From the NCBI GenBank assembly GCA_947630665.1, contig CANRID010000007.1:1-64000 (forward strand): a DNA stretch of 64,000 nt, in the 5' to 3' direction. A program made the translations under genes and the position numbers. The notes under the pieces are model-generated. The model saw nothing but the letters and a program-made list of their open reading frames with translations. It did no database searches and was not told the origin of the DNA. The number at the start of each line of letters is the position of its first letter. The stretch's first letter is position 1. Shown piece by piece: positions 20,471 to 35,502 of the stretch. This DNA comes from an uncultured Bacteroidales bacterium. GTDB taxonomy: Bacteria > Bacteroidota > Bacteroidia > Bacteroidales > UBA932.

Positions 20471-21682
20471 ATGGCATCAATCAAATTAAAATTCAGAGCG
20501 CATACGGATAACAAGAAAGAGGGTGCGTTGTATTTTCAAGTCATACACGAGAGAGTGGTCAAGCAGGTTAAGACCGATTATCGCATATTTGAATACGAGT
20601 GGGATAAGCGACGCGGAGACATTGTCAAAGAGTTTCCACTATCGGCGGCACGAAACGAGACATTGAGGATTGTCCGCGACAAGATTTTGTGGGAGCAAAG
20701 GAAGTTGGAGCAGATTGCCAAATCTTTTGAGAATATCGGCCAGCCATACACAGCCGATGAGATAATCCACCGCTACAAAGAATCTGCATCGGACAAAACA
20801 ACCGTCTTTGAGTACATGCGTCATCAGTCGGAACGGATGAAGAAGCTCGGCAGAACAAGAACGGGCGAAACCTATCAGCAAACATTGCACAGTTTTATGC
20901 GGTTCCGCAATGGCGTTGATTTATATTTCGATATGTTCTATGCCGATATGGCCGAGCAGTACGAGAGTTATATGCGGGCGAATTGTCTGAGCCGCAATAC
21001 GACCTCTTTTTATATGCGGATTCTTCGGTGTATTTATAACCGGGCTGTCGAGGATGGTCTTGCCCAGCAAAACAATCCGTTCAAAAGAGTCTATACAGGC
21101 GTAGATAAAACAGCCAAACGGGCCATATCGATTAAAGAGATCAAGCGGATCAAGGAATTAGACCTTGCGGATAAACCGGATCTGGATTTCGTCCGCGATC
21201 TGTTTATGCTCTCATTCTATCTTCGTGGAATGTCGTTTATCGATCTGGCTTATTTGCGTAAAAAAGACCTTGCCAATGGCTATATTACCTATATCCGCAA
21301 AAAGACCGGGCAGCAGCTTACGATTCGCTGGGAGCGGTCGATGCAGGAGATTATCGACAAATACCCCGAAAATCCGACACCATATCTGTTGCCGGTCATC
21401 ACGAGGCAAGACGGTACGGAACGCAAACAATACCTCAATAAGATACTGTTTGTCAATCGTAAACTGAAACAGATTGCACAATTGGCGAAGATTGCCACGC
21501 CGCTGACGATGTATGTCAGCCGCCATAGCTGGGCAAGCATCGCCAAGTCGAAAAATATTCCGCTAAGCGTCATCAGCGAGGGCATGGGACACGACAACGA
21601 AGAAACCACACGCATCTATCTCGCCTCACTTGACACAAGTGCGGTAGATAAGGCTAATTGTCTTATCTTAAAAGATTTGTAA
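20471..21682 (+). CDS. tyrosine recombinase (integrase/invertase type)
   Basis: A 403-residue site-specific recombinase. The N-terminal arm-binding domain (SIKLKFRAHTDNKKEGALYFQVIHER) is followed by a SAM-like core-binding domain (about 115-200) and the catalytic domain with Arg in LRGMSFIDLAYLRKKDL near 255, Lys-rich KKTGQQLTIRW, the second Arg in YVSRHSWASIAK near 350, the GHDNEETTRIYL segment and the nucleophile Tyr in IYLASLD. The usual H-x-x-R box reads Y-V-S-R. This size and domain order is shared by Bacteroides transposon integrases and by the Tsr-type DNA invertases. A pair of inverted repeats lies just downstream, favouring the invertase reading. Confidence 0.9.
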   Translation: MASIKLKFRAHTDNKKEGALYFQVIHERVVKQVKTDYRIFEYEWDKRRGDIVKEFPLSAARNETLRIVRDKILWEQRKLEQIAKSFENIGQPYTADEIIHRYKESASDKTTVFEYMRHQSERMKKLGRTRTGETYQQTLHSFMRFRNGVDLYFDMFYADMAEQYESYMRANCLSRNTTSFYMRILRCIYNRAVEDGLAQQNNPFKRVYTGVDKTAKRAISIKEIKRIKELDLADKPDLDFVRDLFMLSFYLRGMSFIDLAYLRKKDLANGYITYIRKKTGQQLTIRWERSMQEIIDKYPENPTPYLLPVITRQDGTERKQYLNKILFVNRKLKQIAQLAKIATPLTMYVSRHSWASIAKSKNIPLSVISEGMGHDNEETTRIYLASLDTSAVDKANCLILKDL

Positions 21683-21912: not shown

Positions 21913-22929
21913 ATGTTTGTAGAAATTGATATATTAGAAGATAACATATTCCTGCTTTCGCCTGAATTACTGAATATCTTGCTTAAAGACCATACCACGA
22001 GCAAGGAGGATATTCAGCACAATATCTTTTGGGCAACTTCCGATTATGAATATTTGGGCAATGGTTATCAATATGATTCGCCTATTCTTCCTTGTCTGAT
22101 TACCGGAGATAACGGACATGTCATCATGCCCCGTGTTCTTAAAAGCCGTGATACACAAACTGCGCGTTCACGGGACATGGCAGAGGTGTTTACCCCGTCA
22201 TGGATATGCAATGCACAGAACAATCTGATTGATGAAGCGTGGTTTGGGAGAAAGGATGTGTTCAATACGGAATACACGGACGAACAAGGATACCATCGGT
22301 GGCAGCCCAATGCGGAGAAGATTCAATTTCCGAAAGGCAAGACTTGGAAGGATTATGTTCGTGACACCCGGTTAGAGATATCCTGCGGAGAAGCCCCTTA
22401 CATAGTAAGCCGGTATGATACCACAAACGGAGAGGCTATCCCAATAGAAGGACGTATCGGACTCCTCGATCGCAAGTTGCGGGTAGTAGGTGAAAATACG
22501 GAAACCTCCGGTGAATGGTTGGAATGGACACAGGAAGCATATAAGAGTACTTACGCTTACGAATGGCAAGGCGACAATTTACTGATTGCCCGAGAATCAA
22601 TGCTCATCTCCTTTATCGAATACTATCAACAGAAATTCGGCAAGCAGCCCTTGTTGAAATCCATCAATTATATCGCCTACATCATTTCGTGGAATGTATG
22701 GCAGATGGACGGGCTGAAAGGTGTCGTTCCGAATAGTTGCGGTGAACGCAGGGAAATTGTTGCCGACCTGTTCGGAACAAGGGAAGAAGTCAGTCAATGC
22801 GAAGGTTGTCTGAAAGATGACATACGCAGGCACAACGGTATCTATTGCCAAATCAAGGACTGGCGGGCAAAAGACCCTAAAACGGGAAAAACGGGAAAAC
22901 GAATCCGATTTATCGACCTCATAAAATAG
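21913..22929 (+). CDS. methyltransferase-like restriction-modification subunit
   Basis: A 338-residue protein with two motifs of N6-adenine methyltransferases: the motif X-like AEVFTPSWICN (90-100) and the motif I-like LEISCGEAPYIVSRYD (154-169). It has no N-P-P-Y motif IV, so it is unlikely to methylate alone. The C-terminal half holds IISWNVWQMDGLKGVVP and a possible metal-binding group C-x2-C (297-300) with other Cys and His. It ends 6 bases before the large nuclease-helicase-methyltransferase gene and should act with it, perhaps as a specificity or AdoMet-binding partner. Similar proteins are often labelled restriction subunit M. The GC content is lower than in the core genes. Confidence 0.65.
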   Translation: MFVEIDILEDNIFLLSPELLNILLKDHTTSKEDIQHNIFWATSDYEYLGNGYQYDSPILPCLITGDNGHVIMPRVLKSRDTQTARSRDMAEVFTPSWICNAQNNLIDEAWFGRKDVFNTEYTDEQGYHRWQPNAEKIQFPKGKTWKDYVRDTRLEISCGEAPYIVSRYDTTNGEAIPIEGRIGLLDRKLRVVGENTETSGEWLEWTQEAYKSTYAYEWQGDNLLIARESMLISFIEYYQQKFGKQPLLKSINYIAYIISWNVWQMDGLKGVVPNSCGERREIVADLFGTREEVSQCEGCLKDDIRRHNGIYCQIKDWRAKDPKTGKTGKRIRFIDLIK

Positions 22930-22935
22930 TGCAGC

Positions 22936-25900
22936 ATGAAATTCACATCTTCACTAAAATTGAAACTGATCTATGTGTTCCGCATCAACGATGCCGCACA
23001 CAGAGGGTGTCTGAAGGTGGGTGAAGCCACTTGTAACGATGACAGCGTTTTGGGGCTTGCTCCGAACAGCAAAGCTCTCAACGACTCTGCGAAGAAGCGC
23101 ATTAACCAATATACGCAGACGGCCGGCATCGCCTACGACCTCTTATATACGGAGCTTACCCTATACAACAGCAAAAAAGGCTTGTGTTCTTTCAACGATA
23201 AGGAAGTGCATCATGTGCTGGAGCGTTCCGGTATTAAGAAAAAGATATTCGATACCGAGAACAAAGCCAACAAATGGTTCATCACGGACCTTGAAACGGT
23301 CAAACGGGCCATAACAGCAGTTAAGGAGGGACGGGAATCGCTCTCTTCCGCAGAAGTATCACATGACCGAACTCCGATTGTGTTCCGTCCTGAACAACGG
23401 GAAGCCATCGAAAAGACCAAGAAGCAATTCAAGAAAGGCAATCAGATGTTGTGGAATGCCAAGATGCGTTTCGGCAAAACGTTGTCGGCCTTGCAAGTGG
23501 TAAAAGATATGGATTTCGGCCGGACTTTGATTCTTACCCATCGCCCTGTGGTGGATAGCGGTTGGTTCGAGGATTTCGGCAAGATATTCTATGATAGTCC
23601 CGGTTTTGCATATGGTTCAAAGAACAATGGTGATAACCATGTTTCATTAGAAACGAGAGCGAAACAGGGCAGATGCAAATATGTGTATTTCGCTTCCATG
23701 CAGGACTTGCGCGGTTCCGAACTCGTAGGCGGCAACTTTGACAAGAACGATGATGTGTTTGCTACCGCATGGGATTGCATCATCGTGGACGAAGCACACG
23801 AGGGGACACAGACGGAACTGGGCAAGGCGGTCATACAGGAACTGACAAAAGCCGATACCAAGATATTGCGCCTTTCCGGCACTCCGTTCAATCTGTTGGA
23901 TGATTTCAAAGAGGATGAAATATATACTTGGGACTATGTAATGGAACAACGGGCCAAGGCTTCGTGGGATTTGATACATTTCGGTGATCCGAATCCATAC
24001 GCTTCCCTGCCCACGATGAACATCTACACCTACGATCTCGGGCGGTTGCTCCATGAGTTCGTGGATGAGGATGTGGCTTTCAACTTCCGCGAGTTTTTCC
24101 GTGTCAATGAGGCCGGGAACTTTATCCACGAAAAAGACGTAAAGGCATTCTTGAATCTTATCACCAAAGAAGACAAGGAGAGCTGCTATCCCTTTGCCAA
24201 CGAGGAATACCGCAATATCTTCCGACATACCCTATGGATGCTGCCGGGCGTGAAAGAGGCTCGCGCCATGAGTGTCATGCTGCAATCACACCCTGTATTC
24301 CAACATTTCAAGGTAGTAAATGTAGCGGGAAACGGTGACGAGGACGAAGAGAGCAAAGATGCGCTTGTCGCGGTGGAAGAAGCCATCGGTAAAGACCCTG
24401 ATGCCACACGCACCATCACCCTGTCTTGCGGACGATTGACCACCGGCGTCAGTGTCAAGGCATGGACAGGCGTATTTATGCTGTCCGGCTCATACAATAC
24501 CGCCGCCTCAAGTTATATGCAGACCATCTTCCGTGTGCAGACACCTGCTACTATCAATGGAAGGGTTAAGGAGCAGTGTTATGTGTTTGATTTCGCACCG
24601 GACAGGACACTGAAAGTCATTGCCGAGACGGCGAAGATTTCAGCCAAGGCAGGAAAGACCAGCGGCAACGACCGCAAGATTATGGGCGAGTTCCTGAACT
24701 TCTGCCCGATTATTTCCATCGAAGGCTCCAAGATGAACCAGTTCGATGTACCCAGAATGTTGGAGCAACTCAAACGTGTTTATGTGGAAAGGGTTGTCCG
24801 CAACGGTTTTGAGGACAGGAGCCTATATAATGATGAGTTGATGAAACTCGATGATTTGGAGTTGCAGGAGTTTGACGACCTGAAAAAGATTATCGGTCAG
24901 ACCAAAGTCATGCCCAAGACCAATCAGGTGGACATCAACAATCAGGGATTGACCGATGAACAATATGAGGAACTGGAAGACCTCGAAAAGAAATCCAAGA
25001 AGAAAGGCAAAGACAAACAGCCGTTGACGGAAGAGGAGAAGAAACGGCTCGAAGAGCTGAAAAAGAAAAAGAACAACCGTGAAGCCGCCATTTCCATTCT
25101 TCGGGGTATCTCCATCCGTATGCCCTTGCTGATTTATGGCGCAGAGTTACAAGATGAATCTCAAGAAATAACGATTGACAACTTCGCCTCGCTTATCGAC
25201 CCGCAATCGTGGGAAGAGTTTATGCCGAAAGGAGTTACCAAACAGAAGTTCAACAGCATCAAGAAATACTACGACCCGGAGATATTCTGTGCGGCAGGCA
25301 AACGCATTCGCGCCATAGCCCGAGCTGCGGACAAGCTGAATGTGGAAGAGCGCATCGAACGCATCACGGATATTTTCAGCACATTCCGCAATCCCGACAA
25401 GGAAACGGTGCTTACGCCTTGGCGTGTGGTGAATATGCACCTTGGGGATTGTCTGGGCGGTTATAACTTCTTCGAAAAAGGTTATGAAACCACATTGTCC
25501 GAACCTCGTTTCATTGACCGAGGCGAAGTGACGGCCAATGTATTCGCCCCGGATTCCCGAATCCTTGAAATCAACTCGAAGTCCGGCTTATATCCACTTT
25601 ACATGGCATACAGCATTTACCGCGCAAGGGTAAAGGATTCTTTATTTTCAGTGTCAAGCATAGAGGATGAACAGAGAATCTGGGACAAAGTGGTGGAGGA
25701 AAACATCTTTGTCATCTGCAAGACGCCTATGGCAAAAGCCATTACCCGCCGTACACTTCTTGGCTTCCGCAAAGGAAAAACCAATATGTGGGCGCCGGAA
25801 GATTTAATCAACAAAATTAAAAACCAGCCCGAACTCTTTATCAGCCGCGTTACGAAGGCTTCAAAGTGGGGCATCTTGAACATAGACATGATGAAATTCA

Positions 25901-26937
25901 ACGCTATTGTAGGTAATCCTCCTTATCAGGAAGTAGATGGTGGTGGAATTGGTGATAGTGCTAAACCTATTTATCACTTCTTTGTTGGCATTGCGAAAAG
26001 AATTAATCCGAACTACATGAGTATGATTATGCCATCTCGTTGGTTAAAAGGTGGCAAAGGATTATTCAAATTTAGAGAAGAAATGCTTTCAGACCCATGT
26101 CTTTCTGTTCTTTATGATTATGCGGATGCTGGTGTATGTTTTGGGAATATTCATATTGATGGCGGAATTTGTTACTTCCGTTGGGATAGAAATAAAAAGC
26201 ATGTGGCTCAACAAGTATCTTATTCATACCAAGATCTTTCAGGTTACAGGAGTACATCAATACGTGTTCTTGCGGATGAAGATTTAAATGCCGTCATTAG
26301 GGATGTCCGTCAGCAATCTATTGTAGAAAAAGCATTGCGTCAGAATCAACCTACTTTTGACACTATTGTGTCTCCAAGAAATCCTTTTGGCTTTTATGCA
26401 GATTTGTTTAACCGCCCTGAAAATTATTCATATCTCCATATTTCTGATTATGAAAATGACGGATATGTTCCAATTTATGGTGTTATAGGTATAAAGGGCG
26501 GTGCTAAGCGTATCACGAAATTTATATTAAAAGAAGAAATACTCAAATCCACTTCGAGTATTGACGCATATAAAATATTCTTTTCCAAGGCTTATATGAC
26601 AACATCTACTGTCCCACCAGAATTTATATGTGGACAGCCAGGAGATGTGTGTACGGAAACTTTTCTTAAAATTGGAGATTTCACATCTTCTATAGAAATG
26701 GAATGTTGTGCCAAGTACATAAAAACGAAATTCTTTAGAGCATTACTGTTCTTTAATCGTAGTTCTCTTAACATTTCTCAGTCCACTTTCTCACTTATTC
26801 CTTTGCAGAATTTTGTGGATGATAGTGACATTGACTGGAGCAAAAGCGTATCAGAAATAGATACACAACTCTACGCCAAATACAATCTGACAGAAGAAGA
26901 AATCGCCTTCATCGAATCAATGATTAAACCGATGTAA
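22936..26937 (+). CDS. GIY-YIG-like nuclease / SF2 helicase / N6-adenine methyltransferase fusion
   Basis: A 1333-residue single-chain restriction-modification enzyme. Residues 1-100 resemble a GIY-YIG (T5orf172-like) nuclease: YVFRI, LKVGEAT, KKRINQYT and the Glu of KEVHHVL. Residues 145-580 form an SF2 ATPase: motif I AKMRFGKT near 178, DEAH (IIVDEAHEG) near 281, motif III LSGTPFN, motif VI region FRVQTPA. A charged coiled segment (about 660-720, lys/glu rich) follows. The methyltransferase has motif I ILEINSKSGLYPL near 875 and motif IV NPPYQE near 993, then a target-recognition region. The order nuclease-helicase-methylase-TRD parallels Type ISP enzymes such as LlaGI, but with a different nuclease. 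Composition changes sharply at about 25,905-26,815. Confidence 0.85.
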   Translation: MKFTSSLKLKLIYVFRINDAAHRGCLKVGEATCNDDSVLGLAPNSKALNDSAKKRINQYTQTAGIAYDLLYTELTLYNSKKGLCSFNDKEVHHVLERSGIKKKIFDTENKANKWFITDLETVKRAITAVKEGRESLSSAEVSHDRTPIVFRPEQREAIEKTKKQFKKGNQMLWNAKMRFGKTLSALQVVKDMDFGRTLILTHRPVVDSGWFEDFGKIFYDSPGFAYGSKNNGDNHVSLETRAKQGRCKYVYFASMQDLRGSELVGGNFDKNDDVFATAWDCIIVDEAHEGTQTELGKAVIQELTKADTKILRLSGTPFNLLDDFKEDEIYTWDYVMEQRAKASWDLIHFGDPNPYASLPTMNIYTYDLGRLLHEFVDEDVAFNFREFFRVNEAGNFIHEKDVKAFLNLITKEDKESCYPFANEEYRNIFRHTLWMLPGVKEARAMSVMLQSHPVFQHFKVVNVAGNGDEDEESKDALVAVEEAIGKDPDATRTITLSCGRLTTGVSVKAWTGVFMLSGSYNTAASSYMQTIFRVQTPATINGRVKEQCYVFDFAPDRTLKVIAETAKISAKAGKTSGNDRKIMGEFLNFCPIISIEGSKMNQFDVPRMLEQLKRVYVERVVRNGFEDRSLYNDELMKLDDLELQEFDDLKKIIGQTKVMPKTNQVDINNQGLTDEQYEELEDLEKKSKKKGKDKQPLTEEEKKRLEELKKKKNNREAAISILRGISIRMPLLIYGAELQDESQEITIDNFASLIDPQSWEEFMPKGVTKQKFNSIKKYYDPEIFCAAGKRIRAIARAADKLNVEERIERITDIFSTFRNPDKETVLTPWRVVNMHLGDCLGGYNFFEKGYETTLSEPRFIDRGEVTANVFAPDSRILEINSKSGLYPLYMAYSIYRARVKDSLFSVSSIEDEQRIWDKVVEENIFVICKTPMAKAITRRTLLGFRKGKTNMWAPEDLINKIKNQPELFISRVTKASKWGILNIDMMKFNAIVGNPPYQEVDGGGIGDSAKPIYHFFVGIAKRINPNYMSMIMPSRWLKGGKGLFKFREEMLSDPCLSVLYDYADAGVCFGNIHIDGGICYFRWDRNKKHVAQQVSYSYQDLSGYRSTSIRVLADEDLNAVIRDVRQQSIVEKALRQNQPTFDTIVSPRNPFGFYADLFNRPENYSYLHISDYENDGYVPIYGVIGIKGGAKRITKFILKEEILKSTSSIDAYKIFFSKAYMTTSTVPPEFICGQPGDVCTETFLKIGDFTSSIEMECCAKYIKTKFFRALLFFNRSSLNISQSTFSLIPLQNFVDDSDIDWSKSVSEIDTQLYAKYNLTEEEIAFIESMIKPM

Positions 26938-27162: not shown

Positions 27163-28731
27163 TTATAGTTGTTCTATGATTTTCTGCATTGCCTCACTGC
27201 CCTTTGATAATAGATTCTTTGCAGCCTCTTTTGTATTCAATTTTTCAATACTTAATCCCACATAGGCTAAAGCTTGTTTCTCATTGTCTTTCGTGATTTC
27301 CGCCCCATTATGATGAGCAAGTGAGAGTATTGAACGTAATGTCCTTTCGTTTTTTAAGAAAGTATCGAATTCCGTATCATCAATTTTAAGATGTTCAAAT
27401 AATCTATGTAAGTATGCAATCGATGCCCCCCTCTTTTCTTCTTCTGTAGGATTAAGGATGTTTTTATAGAGTTTAGCCTTATTTAGACTATCATAAAACA
27501 TCAATCCAATTTGTTGAAGTAACGGACTGAGTGCAAAATAATCATTATCCTGCAAAAGATTAATTTTGTCGGGAATTTCATTCTGAGCATGATTCAAAGG
27601 CTTGATAAGCGGGAATCCATATTCTTCTTCCCACTTACGTAATAATGTTTTATACGTATCCCTAAAAACGAAGTCAATTGATTCGGCAGAAGAATTCCAA
27701 TTGCCTTGGAACATTGTTTCTTGAAAATGCCGGCTAAAACCACGTCCGTCAGGAGCGATGTTGTAACCCTTCCAAGTATTTTGTTCTCTATACGGGAGAT
27801 CCAATACATCTTTTAGAAAGGCAACAATATAACTCTCATTATCGTTGTCGCAACGAATAGAGAAATCAGGAGTGGTGATTCTAAGTGATTCAACACAATA
27901 TTTTTCGCGTCCCATATAACGAGAAAGTAATTTCTTTTCAAAGAAAATCGGAGTATATGGGAATGTGTTTTCATCAGACAATATGTCTAACCCATTCTCG
28001 TCTGTTGCAATAATATATCGAGCGTTCATCGATTTCATATACTCTTTAAGTGGTGTGTGCTTAAAGACAGCCTTTCCATTGAACCAATTACGCATATTGG
28101 TAAAACACGGATTTACCATAATATTGTAATGCTGTAATGCTGTCCTACTTATATCTTTGCCTCGTTCAGGAGTACATTTATATTCAAATGTTGGAGAATA
28201 ATCATTCAAATTGTATTCAATTTCTGATTGACAGTGGCAGATTAAATCCATTCCCTTCGCTGCCATAAATTCAGTAAGGTATCTATTAAGTATTTTTGCA
28301 GAAGTATCTGTGATTTCACATACAAGAGTACCTTTATCATCAAAAAACAGCCTTGTGCTTTCCTTATGCACCTCATATAGATTATGGTAGAAAACAATTT
28401 CTTCTGCTACTCTAATCTGCACGAATCGGTCAACTCCATTTTTGAAATCACGGATTATCGTCAATGGCTCAAAGCCATCGTGTACAAAAGGTTTATATGT
28501 ACATCCATTAATTAAAGCACCTCGCACATTGTCAGGTATATCCACGGTATATGATGATAATGCATCGGTTATTTTAGATGGAGTCGCCAAGTAACACCAG
28601 TACTTATAGTAAACATCAATTACTCCGTCCTTGTAATGCTGCTTCTTATATAACCACACCCAATCATTTGCTAAAAAATGATTGGAGAGAAGTTCTATAT
28701 GTTGTTTATGTTCAAATTCTTCTCGAGTCAT
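27163..28731 (-). CDS. unrecognised 522-residue protein of the RloA-RloB operon
   Basis: Not recognised. The protein is soluble, with no signal peptide or helix long enough to span a membrane. The N-terminal half is aromatic-rich and beta-like (WVWLYKKQHYKDGVIDVYYKYWCYLA, FVQIRVAEEIVFYHNLYEV); the middle has conserved-looking ICHCQSEIEYNLNDY and FEYKCTPERGKDISR; the C-terminal third is helical (TEEEKRGASIAYLHRLFEHL, SLAHHNGAEITKDNEKQALAYVGLSIEKL). It begins 6 bases after the RloB stop on the same strand, so it is co-expressed with that module. The gene is AT-rich, unlike the core genes and more so than its two upstream partners. Its place suggests an effector, sensor or third subunit of the defence system. 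Confidence 0.6.
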   Translation of the reverse strand: MTREEFEHKQHIELLSNHFLANDWVWLYKKQHYKDGVIDVYYKYWCYLATPSKITDALSSYTVDIPDNVRGALINGCTYKPFVHDGFEPLTIIRDFKNGVDRFVQIRVAEEIVFYHNLYEVHKESTRLFFDDKGTLVCEITDTSAKILNRYLTEFMAAKGMDLICHCQSEIEYNLNDYSPTFEYKCTPERGKDISRTALQHYNIMVNPCFTNMRNWFNGKAVFKHTPLKEYMKSMNARYIIATDENGLDILSDENTFPYTPIFFEKKLLSRYMGREKYCVESLRITTPDFSIRCDNDNESYIVAFLKDVLDLPYREQNTWKGYNIAPDGRGFSRHFQETMFQGNWNSSAESIDFVFRDTYKTLLRKWEEEYGFPLIKPLNHAQNEIPDKINLLQDNDYFALSPLLQQIGLMFYDSLNKAKLYKNILNPTEEEKRGASIAYLHRLFEHLKIDDTEFDTFLKNERTLRSILSLAHHNGAEITKDNEKQALAYVGLSIEKLNTKEAAKNLLSKGSEAMQKIIEQL

Positions 28732-28737
28732 ATGAAA

Positions 28738-29340
28738 CTATAATTCATTAAGTAATTCAATGATTTTGTGTATCTCAGAGTATGCCCTCAAATCCTCCGG
28801 TGATTCCTTACAGAGCTGGCACAATTTTTCGGAATTTGACATTGCCCGTTCCAAATCTCCATTCTCAGTCAAGAACTTGTAGAGGTTGATACGTATGAAA
28901 TATCGCTTTGTCTTTTCATATCCCGGCATATATTTCTGCAATTCAGGAAGCAGTTGTTCGTAGCTGTCATATCGCCGACAGACCACATTCGGCAGGAAGT
29001 GGAGCAAAAACCAAAATTCAGTGCATGGATTCGTTTCTACAAACATCACTCTTTCGGCATACTTCTTTGCACTGTACTTTCTCTTTGCCCGCTGATAAAG
29101 CTGCATTTCAGAAGGGAACTGTAACAGTCTGTCCATGTCAAACAGGCATACGATATAATCATATTGCTTGTTCAGGTAGGATTCCGCCAATTTCAGAATA
29201 TGATTGATGTCGCTGTGCTGTGGAAAATCCGGAGCGACCTTGAAAGGATAGCGACACGCGATTCTCAAAGAGTCGAAATAGAACCATTCCGTTTCTCCTT
29301 CGCCTATGATGGCGATACTTTTTGTTACTGTTCCCGGCAT
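28738..29340 (-). CDS. rloB: RloB family protein (AbiL-type TOPRIM-like subunit)
   Basis: A 200-residue protein with the RloB pattern: GEGETEWFYFDSL near 13 (the acidic first TOPRIM-like motif), VCLFDMDRL near 64 (D-x-D) and NPCTEFWFLLHF near 106, the family signature. RloB is thought to be a TOPRIM-fold nuclease and pairs with an AAA ATPase in Lactococcus AbiL abortive-infection loci and in restriction-linked ORFs of Campylobacter. The start is 4 bases after the ATPase stop. Catalytic acidic residues are intact, so the module looks functional. Confidence 0.88.
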   Translation of the reverse strand: MPGTVTKSIAIIGEGETEWFYFDSLRIACRYPFKVAPDFPQHSDINHILKLAESYLNKQYDYIVCLFDMDRLLQFPSEMQLYQRAKRKYSAKKYAERVMFVETNPCTEFWFLLHFLPNVVCRRYDSYEQLLPELQKYMPGYEKTKRYFIRINLYKFLTENGDLERAMSNSEKLCQLCKESPEDLRAYSEIHKIIELLNEL

Positions 29341-29344
29341 ATCA

Positions 29345-30643
29345 TCAGTCGTTTAGGTTGATATACTGACTGCCCAAGAACGGCAACTTTACCAATTTCC
29401 CCTGCTTGTAGGCGTTATACGGGGAAAGATTCTTATGCAGTCCCAAAGAAGAAAGGCGCACTATTTTTGTTTCGCCAAATTCGTTCTTATCAGTGAACCA
29501 TATCGTATCACGGCGAATGAAATCCTCGTTGAGCAGATTGATGTCGTGCGTGGTCAGGAGCATCTGGGATGTCCCGTTGCTGTTTGCCAAAAATACTTTT
29601 ATGAAATAAGCCAGCAATTCATAGTGAATGCTTGTTTCCACTTCATCGATAGGCACGAACCGATTGGTCTTTAACAAGAAATTCAGTATCACTGCCATTC
29701 CCAAGAACCTCATGGTGCCATTGGACTCGTATTCTTCCGACAAATCATATACTTTATCACCTGCTTTATGCTTGAAGGTCAGTTCCGTATTTGTGATTTT
29801 TCCTTTTCTAAGCATTTCTGCCTTTGCTTCACTACCAATAGGGGCATTCTGAATCAGTTGTTCCAGTTCCGGAGTAATCAGTTCTTCCTCTTCGTGCAAT
29901 ACCACATCTTCTATATTGAAATCGGACGCTTTCAGGAAGTTCAAGATGAATTTCTTCAAATCCCCTGTTTCGTCTTTATCCAATCGTGATTTGACATATC
30001 CCGAAAGCAGCATACCGGGAGCCAATAGCTCTTTTACCTGTTTGACAAAATAATCGTACACATCATTCAGCTTGGTACGTTCTACGTTGCTTTTGCCAAA
30101 TGCGGCAAGCACACTGCAATTATTGATAGTGTTGCCTGAAATCACATCCTGGCTCTTCTTCGTCATTTTCAGATTTACACCAAAATCGATGGTAGTAGAA
30201 TCTGTTGCGGCATCATAACTGCGGTTATAAAGTTTTGTAGGACGAATGGAATCATAAACAATCAATGTCTCGGAATAAATATGCTTGGCATCCAACTCAA
30301 AACTGAGTATGTACTTCGACTGATTGATATAGAATACCATCGACATCTTTGTCTTTTCATTCCTTGAAGTGTCATCTAACATGAAAGGGACAACCCCGGT
30401 TTTCTCATTCCTGTCTTTTGGCATTCTCAAAACCAACATCCTGAAAAATTCGATGGCATTTAATATGTTTGTTTTGCCGGACGCATTGGCACCATAGATT
30501 ATTCCCACTTTCAGTAATCTTACTCCTTCCTTGACTTCATACGAATATTCATCAGACATAAAAGTGTCCGTCGTCGGTTCAAAACTGATTTTCTGATTCG
30601 ATTTAATGGAGAAATAATTCTCAATGCTGAACTCTGCTATCAT
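29345..30643 (-). CDS. AAA/ABC-type ATPase (RloA/AbiLi-like)
   Basis: A 432-residue SMC-like ATPase of the AAA_15/21 group. The fold starts with FSIENYFSIKSNQKISFEP, Walker A GANASGKTN is near 51-59, a signature-like helical region follows (about 190-290), Walker B FVPIDEVETSIHYEL near 332-346, and LLTTHDINLL as the switch His. Such ATPases are overcoming-lysogenization-defect or AbiL-like sensors that control a partner nuclease. It heads a four-gene minus-strand operon (ATPase, RloB, 522-residue protein, 57-residue protein) with 4-, 6- and 13-base gaps. Confidence 0.88.
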   Translation of the reverse strand: MIAEFSIENYFSIKSNQKISFEPTTDTFMSDEYSYEVKEGVRLLKVGIIYGANASGKTNILNAIEFFRMLVLRMPKDRNEKTGVVPFMLDDTSRNEKTKMSMVFYINQSKYILSFELDAKHIYSETLIVYDSIRPTKLYNRSYDAATDSTTIDFGVNLKMTKKSQDVISGNTINNCSVLAAFGKSNVERTKLNDVYDYFVKQVKELLAPGMLLSGYVKSRLDKDETGDLKKFILNFLKASDFNIEDVVLHEEEELITPELEQLIQNAPIGSEAKAEMLRKGKITNTELTFKHKAGDKVYDLSEEYESNGTMRFLGMAVILNFLLKTNRFVPIDEVETSIHYELLAYFIKVFLANSNGTSQMLLTTHDINLLNEDFIRRDTIWFTDKNEFGETKIVRLSSLGLHKNLSPYNAYKQGKLVKLPFLGSQYINLND

Positions 30644-34194: not shown

Positions 34195-34898
34195 AAAAGC
34201 ATTATAAGTATAAAGAGACGGATAAGATGAGTGATCTTATCTGTGAGGATTACTCATTGCTAACCGTTATGAGCCGTTTCGGCTTGTCTCTCGGATTCGG
34301 AGACCAAAGCGTGAAAGAGGTATGCCGGACCCAGCACGTGGATCACAAGACTTTTCTGGCGGTGGTCAATTTCATGGAAGACGGACAGTTCCAGCCCGAA
34401 GACCTGGAAGATTCGGAATTTTCCATCGAGGCCCTGATGGAATATCTGAAAAGGGCCCACAATTATTTTCTGGACTTCAACCTGCCGGCCATCCGGCGCA
34501 AACTCATCGAAGCGATCGACTGTTCGGCCGCCAACGATGTAGCTTTAGTAATCCTCAAATTTTATGACGAGTACGTGGGAGAAGTGCGCAAACACATGAA
34601 TTACGAAGACCGCAGGGTCTTTACCTATGTCGAATCCTTGTTGAAGGGAACTCCGCCCGAAGATTATAATATCGCCGTTTTCGCCAGGCGCCACAATCAG
34701 ATCAACCGGAAACTGAACGAGCTTAAAAACATCATCATCAAATATTATCCGCAGAAAGGGAGCAACAACCTGCTCAATGCGGTCTTATTCGATATTTACA
34801 ATTGCGAACATGACCTGTTCTCCCATTGCCGGATAGAAGATTACATGTTCGTTCCGGCCGTGCTGCAACTGGAAAAAAAGAGGCAAAATGAAAAATAG
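34191..34898 (+). CDS. iron-centre repair-like hemerythrin protein (RIC/YtfE type)
   Basis: A 235-residue protein. The N-terminal ScdA_N/DUF542-like part (about 13-75, SDLICEDYSLLTVMSRFGL..KEVC) is followed by a hemerythrin HHE domain with the di-iron ligands: H in KRAHNYF near 91, H-x3-E in RKHMNYE near 139, H in ARRHNQI near 169, and H-x3-E/D in SHCRIEDYMFVP near 213. RIC proteins restore iron-sulfur clusters damaged by nitric oxide or oxidants. Start 34191 is supported by its ATGA overlap with the HMA gene; M13 is an alternative. It overlaps the LuxR gene by 11 bases. Confidence 0.85.
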   Translation: MKKHYKYKETDKMSDLICEDYSLLTVMSRFGLSLGFGDQSVKEVCRTQHVDHKTFLAVVNFMEDGQFQPEDLEDSEFSIEALMEYLKRAHNYFLDFNLPAIRRKLIEAIDCSAANDVALVILKFYDEYVGEVRKHMNYEDRRVFTYVESLLKGTPPEDYNIAVFARRHNQINRKLNELKNIIIKYYPQKGSNNLLNAVLFDIYNCEHDLFSHCRIEDYMFVPAVLQLEKKRQNEK

Positions 34899-35502
34899 CG
34901 GACCTTTTAAAATAGTGATCGCAGATACATCCGTAATCGTAAGAAGCGGAATCGTATCCGTCTTAAAAAGAGTTCCGGATCTGAATATACAGCCGGTGGA
35001 AATCGTTTCGGCGGAAGCCCTGCATAATTTCACCCGACTGCACACTCCCGATCTGATGTTGGTAAATCCCTTATTGGAGGAATGGTTCAATATAACGGCT
35101 TTCAAGGCGAAAAATCCTTCGGTAAAATGTATCGCCTTGCTCTATTCCGTCATGAATCCCGCTTTGCTGAAAGATTACGATCAGACCATATCCATCTGCG
35201 ATGATGCGGATACGATCGTTTCCAAAATAAACTCCCAGTTAAACCGGCCCGGAGAGACTGAGGAAAAAGAAAACAACGGACAGGAACCCCTGAGCCAGCG
35301 GGAAAAAGAAATCATCGTATGCGTGGTTAAAGGAATGACCAACAAAGAGATAGCAAACAAGCTCTTTCTTTCTATCCATACGGTCATTACGCATCGCCGG
35401 AATATCGCCCGAAAACTACAGATCCATTCTCCCGCCGGCCTTACCATTTACGCCATTATCAACAAGTTAGTTGAATTGCAGGATATCAAGAACCTGTTTT
35501 GA
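34888..35502 (+). CDS. LuxR-type regulator with degenerate receiver
   Basis: A 204-residue regulator. Residues 1-115 follow the receiver fold, but the phospho-acceptor position reads Asn (TPDLMLVNPLL) and only one Asp remains in the acidic pocket (VIADTS), so it is probably not controlled by ordinary phosphorylation. The C-terminal GerE/LuxR HTH is intact: LSQREKEIIVCVVKGMTNKEIANKLFLSIHTVITHRRNIARKL. Paired hemerythrin-LuxR genes are frequent in Bacteroidales. It is the last gene of the copper/iron-repair operon and may regulate it in response to a signal sensed by the hemerythrin partner; this is inference. Confidence 0.88.
   Translation: MKNSGPFKIVIADTSVIVRSGIVSVLKRVPDLNIQPVEIVSAEALHNFTRLHTPDLMLVNPLLEEWFNITAFKAKNPSVKCIALLYSVMNPALLKDYDQTISICDDADTIVSKINSQLNRPGETEEKENNGQEPLSQREKEIIVCVVKGMTNKEIANKLFLSIHTVITHRRNIARKLQIHSPAGLTIYAIINKLVELQDIKNLF

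Follow-up and report, generated by a model that had tools for sequence, protein, structure and literature searches.

Type ISP restriction-modification (RM) enzymes, exemplified by LlaBIII and LlaGI, join an Mrr nuclease of the PD-(D/E)XK type, a superfamily 2 (SF2) motor, a coupler, a gamma-class N6-adenine methyltransferase (MTase) and a target recognition domain (TRD), in this order, on one self-sufficient chain. When such an enzyme meets an unmethylated foreign site, the motor is released and translocates, and the Mrr nuclease cuts once two translocating enzymes from head-to-head sites have collided. A similar order of parts occurs in a 1333-residue protein of an uncultured Bacteroidales bacterium, encoded in the stretch of 64,000 nucleotides analysed here (the window; positions 1 to 64,000 of contig CANRID010000007.1, assembly GCA_947630665.1), directly downstream of the gene for a small protein, S. 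We consider it likely that this pair forms a two-subunit, ATP-dependent, Type ISP-like RM system in which S completes the MTase; that the locus is an RM system at all is, judging from context and homology, highly probable. Two defining features of Type ISP, the Mrr nuclease and the single self-sufficient chain, appear from the sequences to be missing: the nuclease domain is of the GIY-YIG type, and the cofactor half of the large chain is degenerate and nearly always accompanied by a separate small subunit. Although Type ISP enzymes gave the best whole-length structural match, a sequence search of the Protein Data Bank (PDB) with both proteins and their profiles returned no usable match, the solved Type ISP structures included.

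Other described systems share parts of this architecture. M.AquI is a naturally split DNA MTase of the cytosine-5 class, cut within one domain, whose two chains complement each other into one MTase; in this it resembles the window pair, but it has no second degenerate cofactor half, motor or nuclease. The gamma-class N6-adenine MTases MmeI, CamA and BrxX share the fold of S (MmeI, Z 8.4) and of the MTase region of the large chain (CamA, Z 21), but are single chains with cofactor motifs of their own. Among the PADLOC families, PDLC03626 (REase_MTase_IIG) covers residues 8-1075 of the genome's second large protein (1167 bits) and PDLC03390 (MTase_II) covers S (406 bits); the C-terminus of the window's large protein is labelled Type IIG/MTase_II, and S is labelled Type II MTase. 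Type IIG enzymes unite endonuclease and MTase on one chain and cut near their site with no need of ATP, yet a complete SF2 motor is present in the large chain. The preliminary description of the locus knew of no named system for the pair. Both proteins do match these families, so that this part of the claim falls; it stands in that the names are generic, apply to the two as independent proteins, and record neither the split halves nor the GIY-YIG motor. The DnmA-YeeB-YeeC set of Bacillus subtilis and Vibrio crassostreae co-encodes an N6-adenine MTase, an SF2 helicase and a T5orf172/GIY-YIG protein (PMC9973331), so a gene set with these components had been described before. Homologues of this set in V. 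crassostreae alter sensitivity to some phages (PMC9973331), and DnmA is an MmeI-like MTase that is sufficient alone (PMC7261158). Compared by published descriptions, not sequences, the set differs from the window pair in having three genes and no reported S-like partner (PMC9973331, PMC7261158). Searches of the open-licence literature found nothing relevant on a split N6-adenine MTase or on the window gene pair, and the division of labour proposed here, a split MTase with a second, degenerate half, seems undescribed.

Reciprocal motif loss in the two chains

We refer to the cofactor half as S, to the degenerate half within the large chain as Psi, to the half with the catalytic NPPY motif and the TRD as C, and to the nuclease plus motor as NH. 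The features that bear on the MTase are as follows.

21913..22929, + strand: S (small subunit), 338 aa; predicted S-adenosylmethionine (SAM)-binding half of an N6-adenine MTase, stopping just short of the catalytic motif
22180..22203, + strand: S motif X, AEVFTPSW, residues 90-97; E91, V92, T94, P95 and W97 invariant in 78/78
22372..22401, + strand: S motif I, LEISCGEAPY, residues 154-163; Gly kept (G159, 78/78)
22552..22575, + strand: S motif II, YAYEWQGD, residues 214-221; E/D217 and D221 each in 78/78
22696..22716, + strand: S motif III-like, VWQMDGL, residues 262-268; D/N266 in 77/78
22936..26937, + strand: large subunit, 1333 aa; from the N-terminus a nuclease domain and motor, the coupler, Psi and C
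25396..25893, + strand: Psi, degenerate N-terminal MTase half, residues ~821-986; motif I is LEINSKSGLYPL, where K882 takes the place of Gly; another residue at the acidic position of motif II
25894..26934, + strand: C, catalytic MTase half and TRD, residues 987-1333; NPPY at 25915-25926; CamA-like MTase+TRD fold

Both open reading frames (ORFs) are real, and they follow each other on the same strand with a gap of 6 bp. S of the window has no Pfam match above cutoff, and the large protein has only two, to ResIII (149-318) and to the Eco57I MTase (922-1065). None of the 78 S proteins contains NPPY, in agreement with the preliminary description, which had noted a small MTase-like partner without this motif. 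In VIA-align the predicted structure of S (pLDDT 90) corresponds to the N-terminal half of the MTase in each of MmeI, LlaBIII (residues 782-1011) and CamA. The match to LlaBIII ends at residue 1011, just ahead of the catalytic motif, and the catalytic Asn of LlaGI, a close homologue of LlaBIII, is residue 1018 (PMC4872093). In the large proteins, motif I reads LE(I/M)NSK(S/T)GLYPL, with lysine (K882) at the first Gly of GxG in 85/85, and motif II has another residue at its acidic position (K929 in 84/85), while the catalytic NPPY is intact in all 85. The loss is thus reciprocal, S keeping the cofactor motifs and the large chain the catalytic motif, and neither chain alone shows the motif order X-I-II-III-IV(NPPY)-TRD with a canonical motif I.

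The two genes also travel together, with S directly upstream of the large gene in 81 of 84 testable loci. This adjacency, overlapping starts and fusions of S to C rule out S as a chance neighbour. S is nearly obligatory, and the cofactor motifs missing from the large chain are present on it; the large chain is therefore probably not self-sufficient, and its earlier characterisation as a single-chain enzyme does not appear to hold. On sequence grounds we have good confidence that S supplies the cofactor half of the MTase. In the mechanism that we propose, the TRD of the large chain would read the DNA site and the adenine would be flipped into the NPPY pocket; S would then give its SAM-binding half (motifs X, I, II and III) to C in trans, leading to N6-adenine methylation. 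Methylation would need S because Psi has lost the SAM-binding residues. At an unmethylated foreign site the motor would instead be released and translocate, and the GIY-YIG domain would cut. Here it is an inference that SAM is bound by S, which then makes the active site complete; the same applies to methylation and cleavage of DNA by the system, and to a role of Psi in restriction and not in methylation. Should the split be real, the small 'restriction endonuclease subunit M' of current annotation is half an MTase and not a second one, which changes the prediction of methylomes and restriction barriers.

The association between the lysine motif and S was evaluated in a control sample drawn from the same phylum, 60 loci that encode Eco57I-type MTases, in which S was also detected with profiles built from known S genes. 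Results demonstrated that S lies beside the MTase in 9/9 loci with a Lys motif I and in none with the canonical Gly motif I (Fisher p about 1.6e-10, although these are not independent trials, since the Lys-type enzymes form a single clade with 100/100 support, and the pattern is one ancient event kept throughout). The same control ruled out the Lys motif I as a common form among Eco57I MTases. The single origin weighs against the two-subunit reading, and several further points do so as well. The first Gly of GxG is missing from M.TaqI as well, and loss of SAM binding is therefore not proved by a change in motif I alone. Psi and C together fold, in the predicted model, as an apparently complete CamA-like MTase, and S must therefore displace Psi or act otherwise. 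Foldseek with S alone gave no strong match (best E 0.29), the fold of S being matched only in VIA-align, at Z 8.4, and hhalign found no similarity between the S profile and the Psi half of the large chain. Finally, no experiments on any member of the family were found in the open-licence literature. The hhalign comparison also ruled out S as a recent duplicate of Psi.

Rearranged halves and exchange of the recognition domain

The halves occur in several natural arrangements. In the window form S precedes a single NH-Psi-C chain, and in a three-gene form S, Psi-C and NH are separate proteins; the S proteins of these two forms are homologous by hhalign (probability 98.6%, E 5.5e-16). In loci L224 and L226, and also in L005, which is broken by an insertion sequence, the genes encode S, C and NH-Psi, and in L225 (711 aa) and L227 (671 aa) S and C are fused beside an NH-Psi chain. 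Throughout L224-L227 the Lys-type Psi closes the helicase chain and C accompanies S. Some phages have only the MTase parts: Tenacibaculum phage PTm1 (L211) and a large-phage contig (L239) have C and S, and Fusobacterium phage FNU4 (L212) has an S-C fusion. Where C stands alone, in PTm1 and L239, the protein starts with MKFDIIVGNPPYQ and MRFDVIVGNPPYG, respectively, and thus has no cofactor half of its own; no homologue of NH-Psi was found in PTm1 or FNU4 at E 1e-5. In FNU4, Pfam Eco57I is matched as one domain across the S-C junction (176-369, profile 9-171). The annotated start of the FNU4 gene, FNU4_28, is too late (L212:2760-3006), as the frame stays open upstream through motif X. In each of the single S-C ORFs (L212, L225 and L227), joining S and C gives the canonical MTase motif order. 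From these natural splits and fusions, S and C can be read together as a single canonical MTase. Psi persists wherever the cutting machinery does, either as part of the NH chain or, when there are three genes, joined to C. The company that this degenerate half keeps with motor and nuclease in bacterial systems suggests a role of Psi in restriction. An S-like gene of ~255 aa is also present on five very large phage-like contigs of 155-411 kb (L232, L234-L237), where no C gene can be recognised beside it.

The arrangements bear directly on two alternatives. The large chain could be competent in methylation by itself, with a SAM pocket of unusual form, and S an accessory, METTL14-like pseudo-MTase that stabilises the complex or aids DNA binding. 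The complete CamA-like fold of Psi and C would fit this, as would the perfect conservation of Psi residues, K882 included, which indicates that Psi is under selection. However, the cofactor motifs are kept by S and not by Psi, C occurs alone with S or fused to it without Psi in the same chain, and the phages that keep only the methylation part have retained S and C and lost Psi; we therefore regard a competent large chain as unlikely. It is also conceivable that the large chain only senses its site, with NPPY holding the flipped base, no methylation taking place and host protection coming from elsewhere. While the degeneration of motifs I and II in all large chains would agree with such a sensor, NPPY is invariant (85/85), and the same C module makes single-chain S-C MTases of canonical order, which leaves the sensor very improbable.

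In 128 pairs of large proteins whose motors are nearly identical (90% or more) but whose TRDs differ, identity is high through GNPPYQ and collapses directly after it, from a mean of 86% to 24%. TRDs are swapped right after NPPY. In a compared example S is about 88% identical while identity in the TRD drops to 12%. This bears on a third alternative, in which a Type IIG or Type ISP enzyme of the usual kind is accompanied by an independent second MTase, S, that protects the other strand. Two-MTase systems are common for asymmetric sites, and the PADLOC labels (Type II MTase for S, Type IIG for the large chain) would suit one here. But S has no catalytic NPPY in 78/78 proteins, ends ahead of the position of the TRD, and stays constant while the TRD changes; we give this explanation the least credence of all. 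If the two-subunit reading is true, the pair would be a naturally modular N6-adenine MTase in two parts, and one cassette swap after NPPY would alter its specificity.

Silent copies of C were found at two related loci. At L092 (8832-12985) there are silent C cassettes, one of them inverted; inverted repeats lie at the NPPY codons, and a tyrosine recombinase is encoded as well. This is a TRD-switching arrangement that looks like a phase-variable specificity switch. At L030 (10230-15487) two silent C copies lie in direct orientation 3' of the large gene, one of them beyond a GH35 gene. The window locus has neither silent TRD cassettes nor inverted repeats, which rules out the window copy as a shufflon.

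More tentatively, a single C may have two alternative cofactor halves, S for methylation and Psi as a conserved decoy, or a half with a coupling role, that occupies the same place during restriction; we think this possible but doubtful. Swapping S and Psi would then switch the enzyme between modifying and cutting, and recombination that shuffles the TRDs would take place at the NPPY codons, exactly the seam between the halves. A real split of the MTase would provide a testable model of how an enzyme chooses between methylating and cutting.

Putative nuclease and motor of the large chain

The remaining features of the large chain precede Psi.

22963..23325, + strand: putative T5orf172-type GIY-YIG nuclease domain, residues ~10-130; T5orf172 match in homologues and invariant residues
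23272..23274, + strand: K113, codon AAA; 84/85 relatives have Glu here ('EWF' motif)
23368..24795, + strand: SF2 helicase-like translocase, residues ~145-620; Pfam ResIII 2e-13, RadD and Snf2h-like folds at Z 21.5
24796..25335, + strand: coupler-like helical region, residues ~621-800; helical in the model and placed by the whole-length LlaBIII alignment, its boundary inferred

An AlphaFold2 model of residues 140-1333 (mean pLDDT 80.6, pTM 0.59) gave LlaBIII and LlaGI as the best, whole-length Foldseek matches, with LlaBIII (4xqk_A) at E=6.6e-21 over 1388 columns, and the domain order proposed in the preliminary description is confirmed by this result. Single domains match RadD/Snf2-type motors (Z about 21) and the CamA MTase and TRD (Z about 21). 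The rigid-body fit of the model to LlaBIII is poor (TM 0.26), so it is the order of domains, not their exact arrangement, that is common to the two.

The assignment of the N-terminus to GIY-YIG, also proposed earlier in place of an Mrr nuclease, is based on profile matches and invariant residues. The window copy itself falls below the Pfam cutoff (T5orf172, E=0.15; MUG113, E=0.05). All 61 aligned homologues match T5orf172 (best 5.2e-7), and none of them matches Mrr at the N-terminus; split relatives, in which nuclease and motor form a protein of their own, exceed the Pfam cutoffs (T5orf172, 7.7e-8; MUG113, 7e-9). The signature residues Y13, K27, G29, R55 and D88 are invariant in 85 sequences, and the N-terminus has the residues expected of the T5orf172 family as far as the alignment can tell, namely a Tyr, a (Y/K)IG, an Arg and an acidic residue. 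Lysine at position 113 occurs in the window copy alone and is one base away from a Glu codon. It may represent a variant, an assembly error or a local inactivation of the predicted nuclease. The Lactococcus/Enterococcus-type large proteins (L001:3518-7873, L098) have an extra ~140 aa before the GIY-YIG domain, with a weak match to DUF4145.

Distribution, mobility and neighbouring genes

A search for relatives in other genomes, akin to the check on the gene pair that the preliminary description had put forward, was made in 84,980 species genomes and confirmed at least 536. Full-length relatives have 41-87% identity, far more than chance would give. Relatives also occur on 87 plasmid records, mostly of Enterococcus and Lactococcus, and 33 of these cover 80% or more of the query. 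The bacterial genomes and plasmids with the system number in the hundreds, yet annotation handles its two proteins as separate methylases. Directly 5' of the pair lies a probable mobility gene of the cassette:

20471..21682, + strand: tyrosine integrase, 403 aa; Pfam Phage_int_SAM_5, Phage_integrase and Arm-DNA-bind_5

An integrase 50-55% identical to it is found in the same position and orientation upstream in 12 of 41 long homologous loci, and the small gene is absent from other genomes of the same genus (0/36). On both counts the cassette looks mobile, and the gene pair is probably a widespread, mobile bacterial anti-virus system, as far as comparison of sequences indicates. A second system is present on another contig of the same genome (G000:C6:33805-38773; L101:5800-10807, - strand), with LDIASKQGEF as motif I of its large chain. 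Its S is 62% identical to that of the window, and its large protein only 24-29% identical in aligned stretches. The next gene but one at this second locus (L101:3891-4790) appears SEFIR/TIR-like by eye.

Directly 3' of the window pair, a run on the opposite strand (27163-30643, - strand) encodes an AbiLi-type ATPase (432 aa) and an AbiLii/RloB-like protein (200 aa), and the RM pair together with these AbiL/RloB-type genes is a small defence island. The same run also encodes a 522-aa protein to which the Pfam and PADLOC scans assigned no family. Further along the window (34888-35502, + strand), beside two uncharacterised ORFs, lies a gene whose 204-aa product weakly matches CARF-type families of PADLOC (4e-10).

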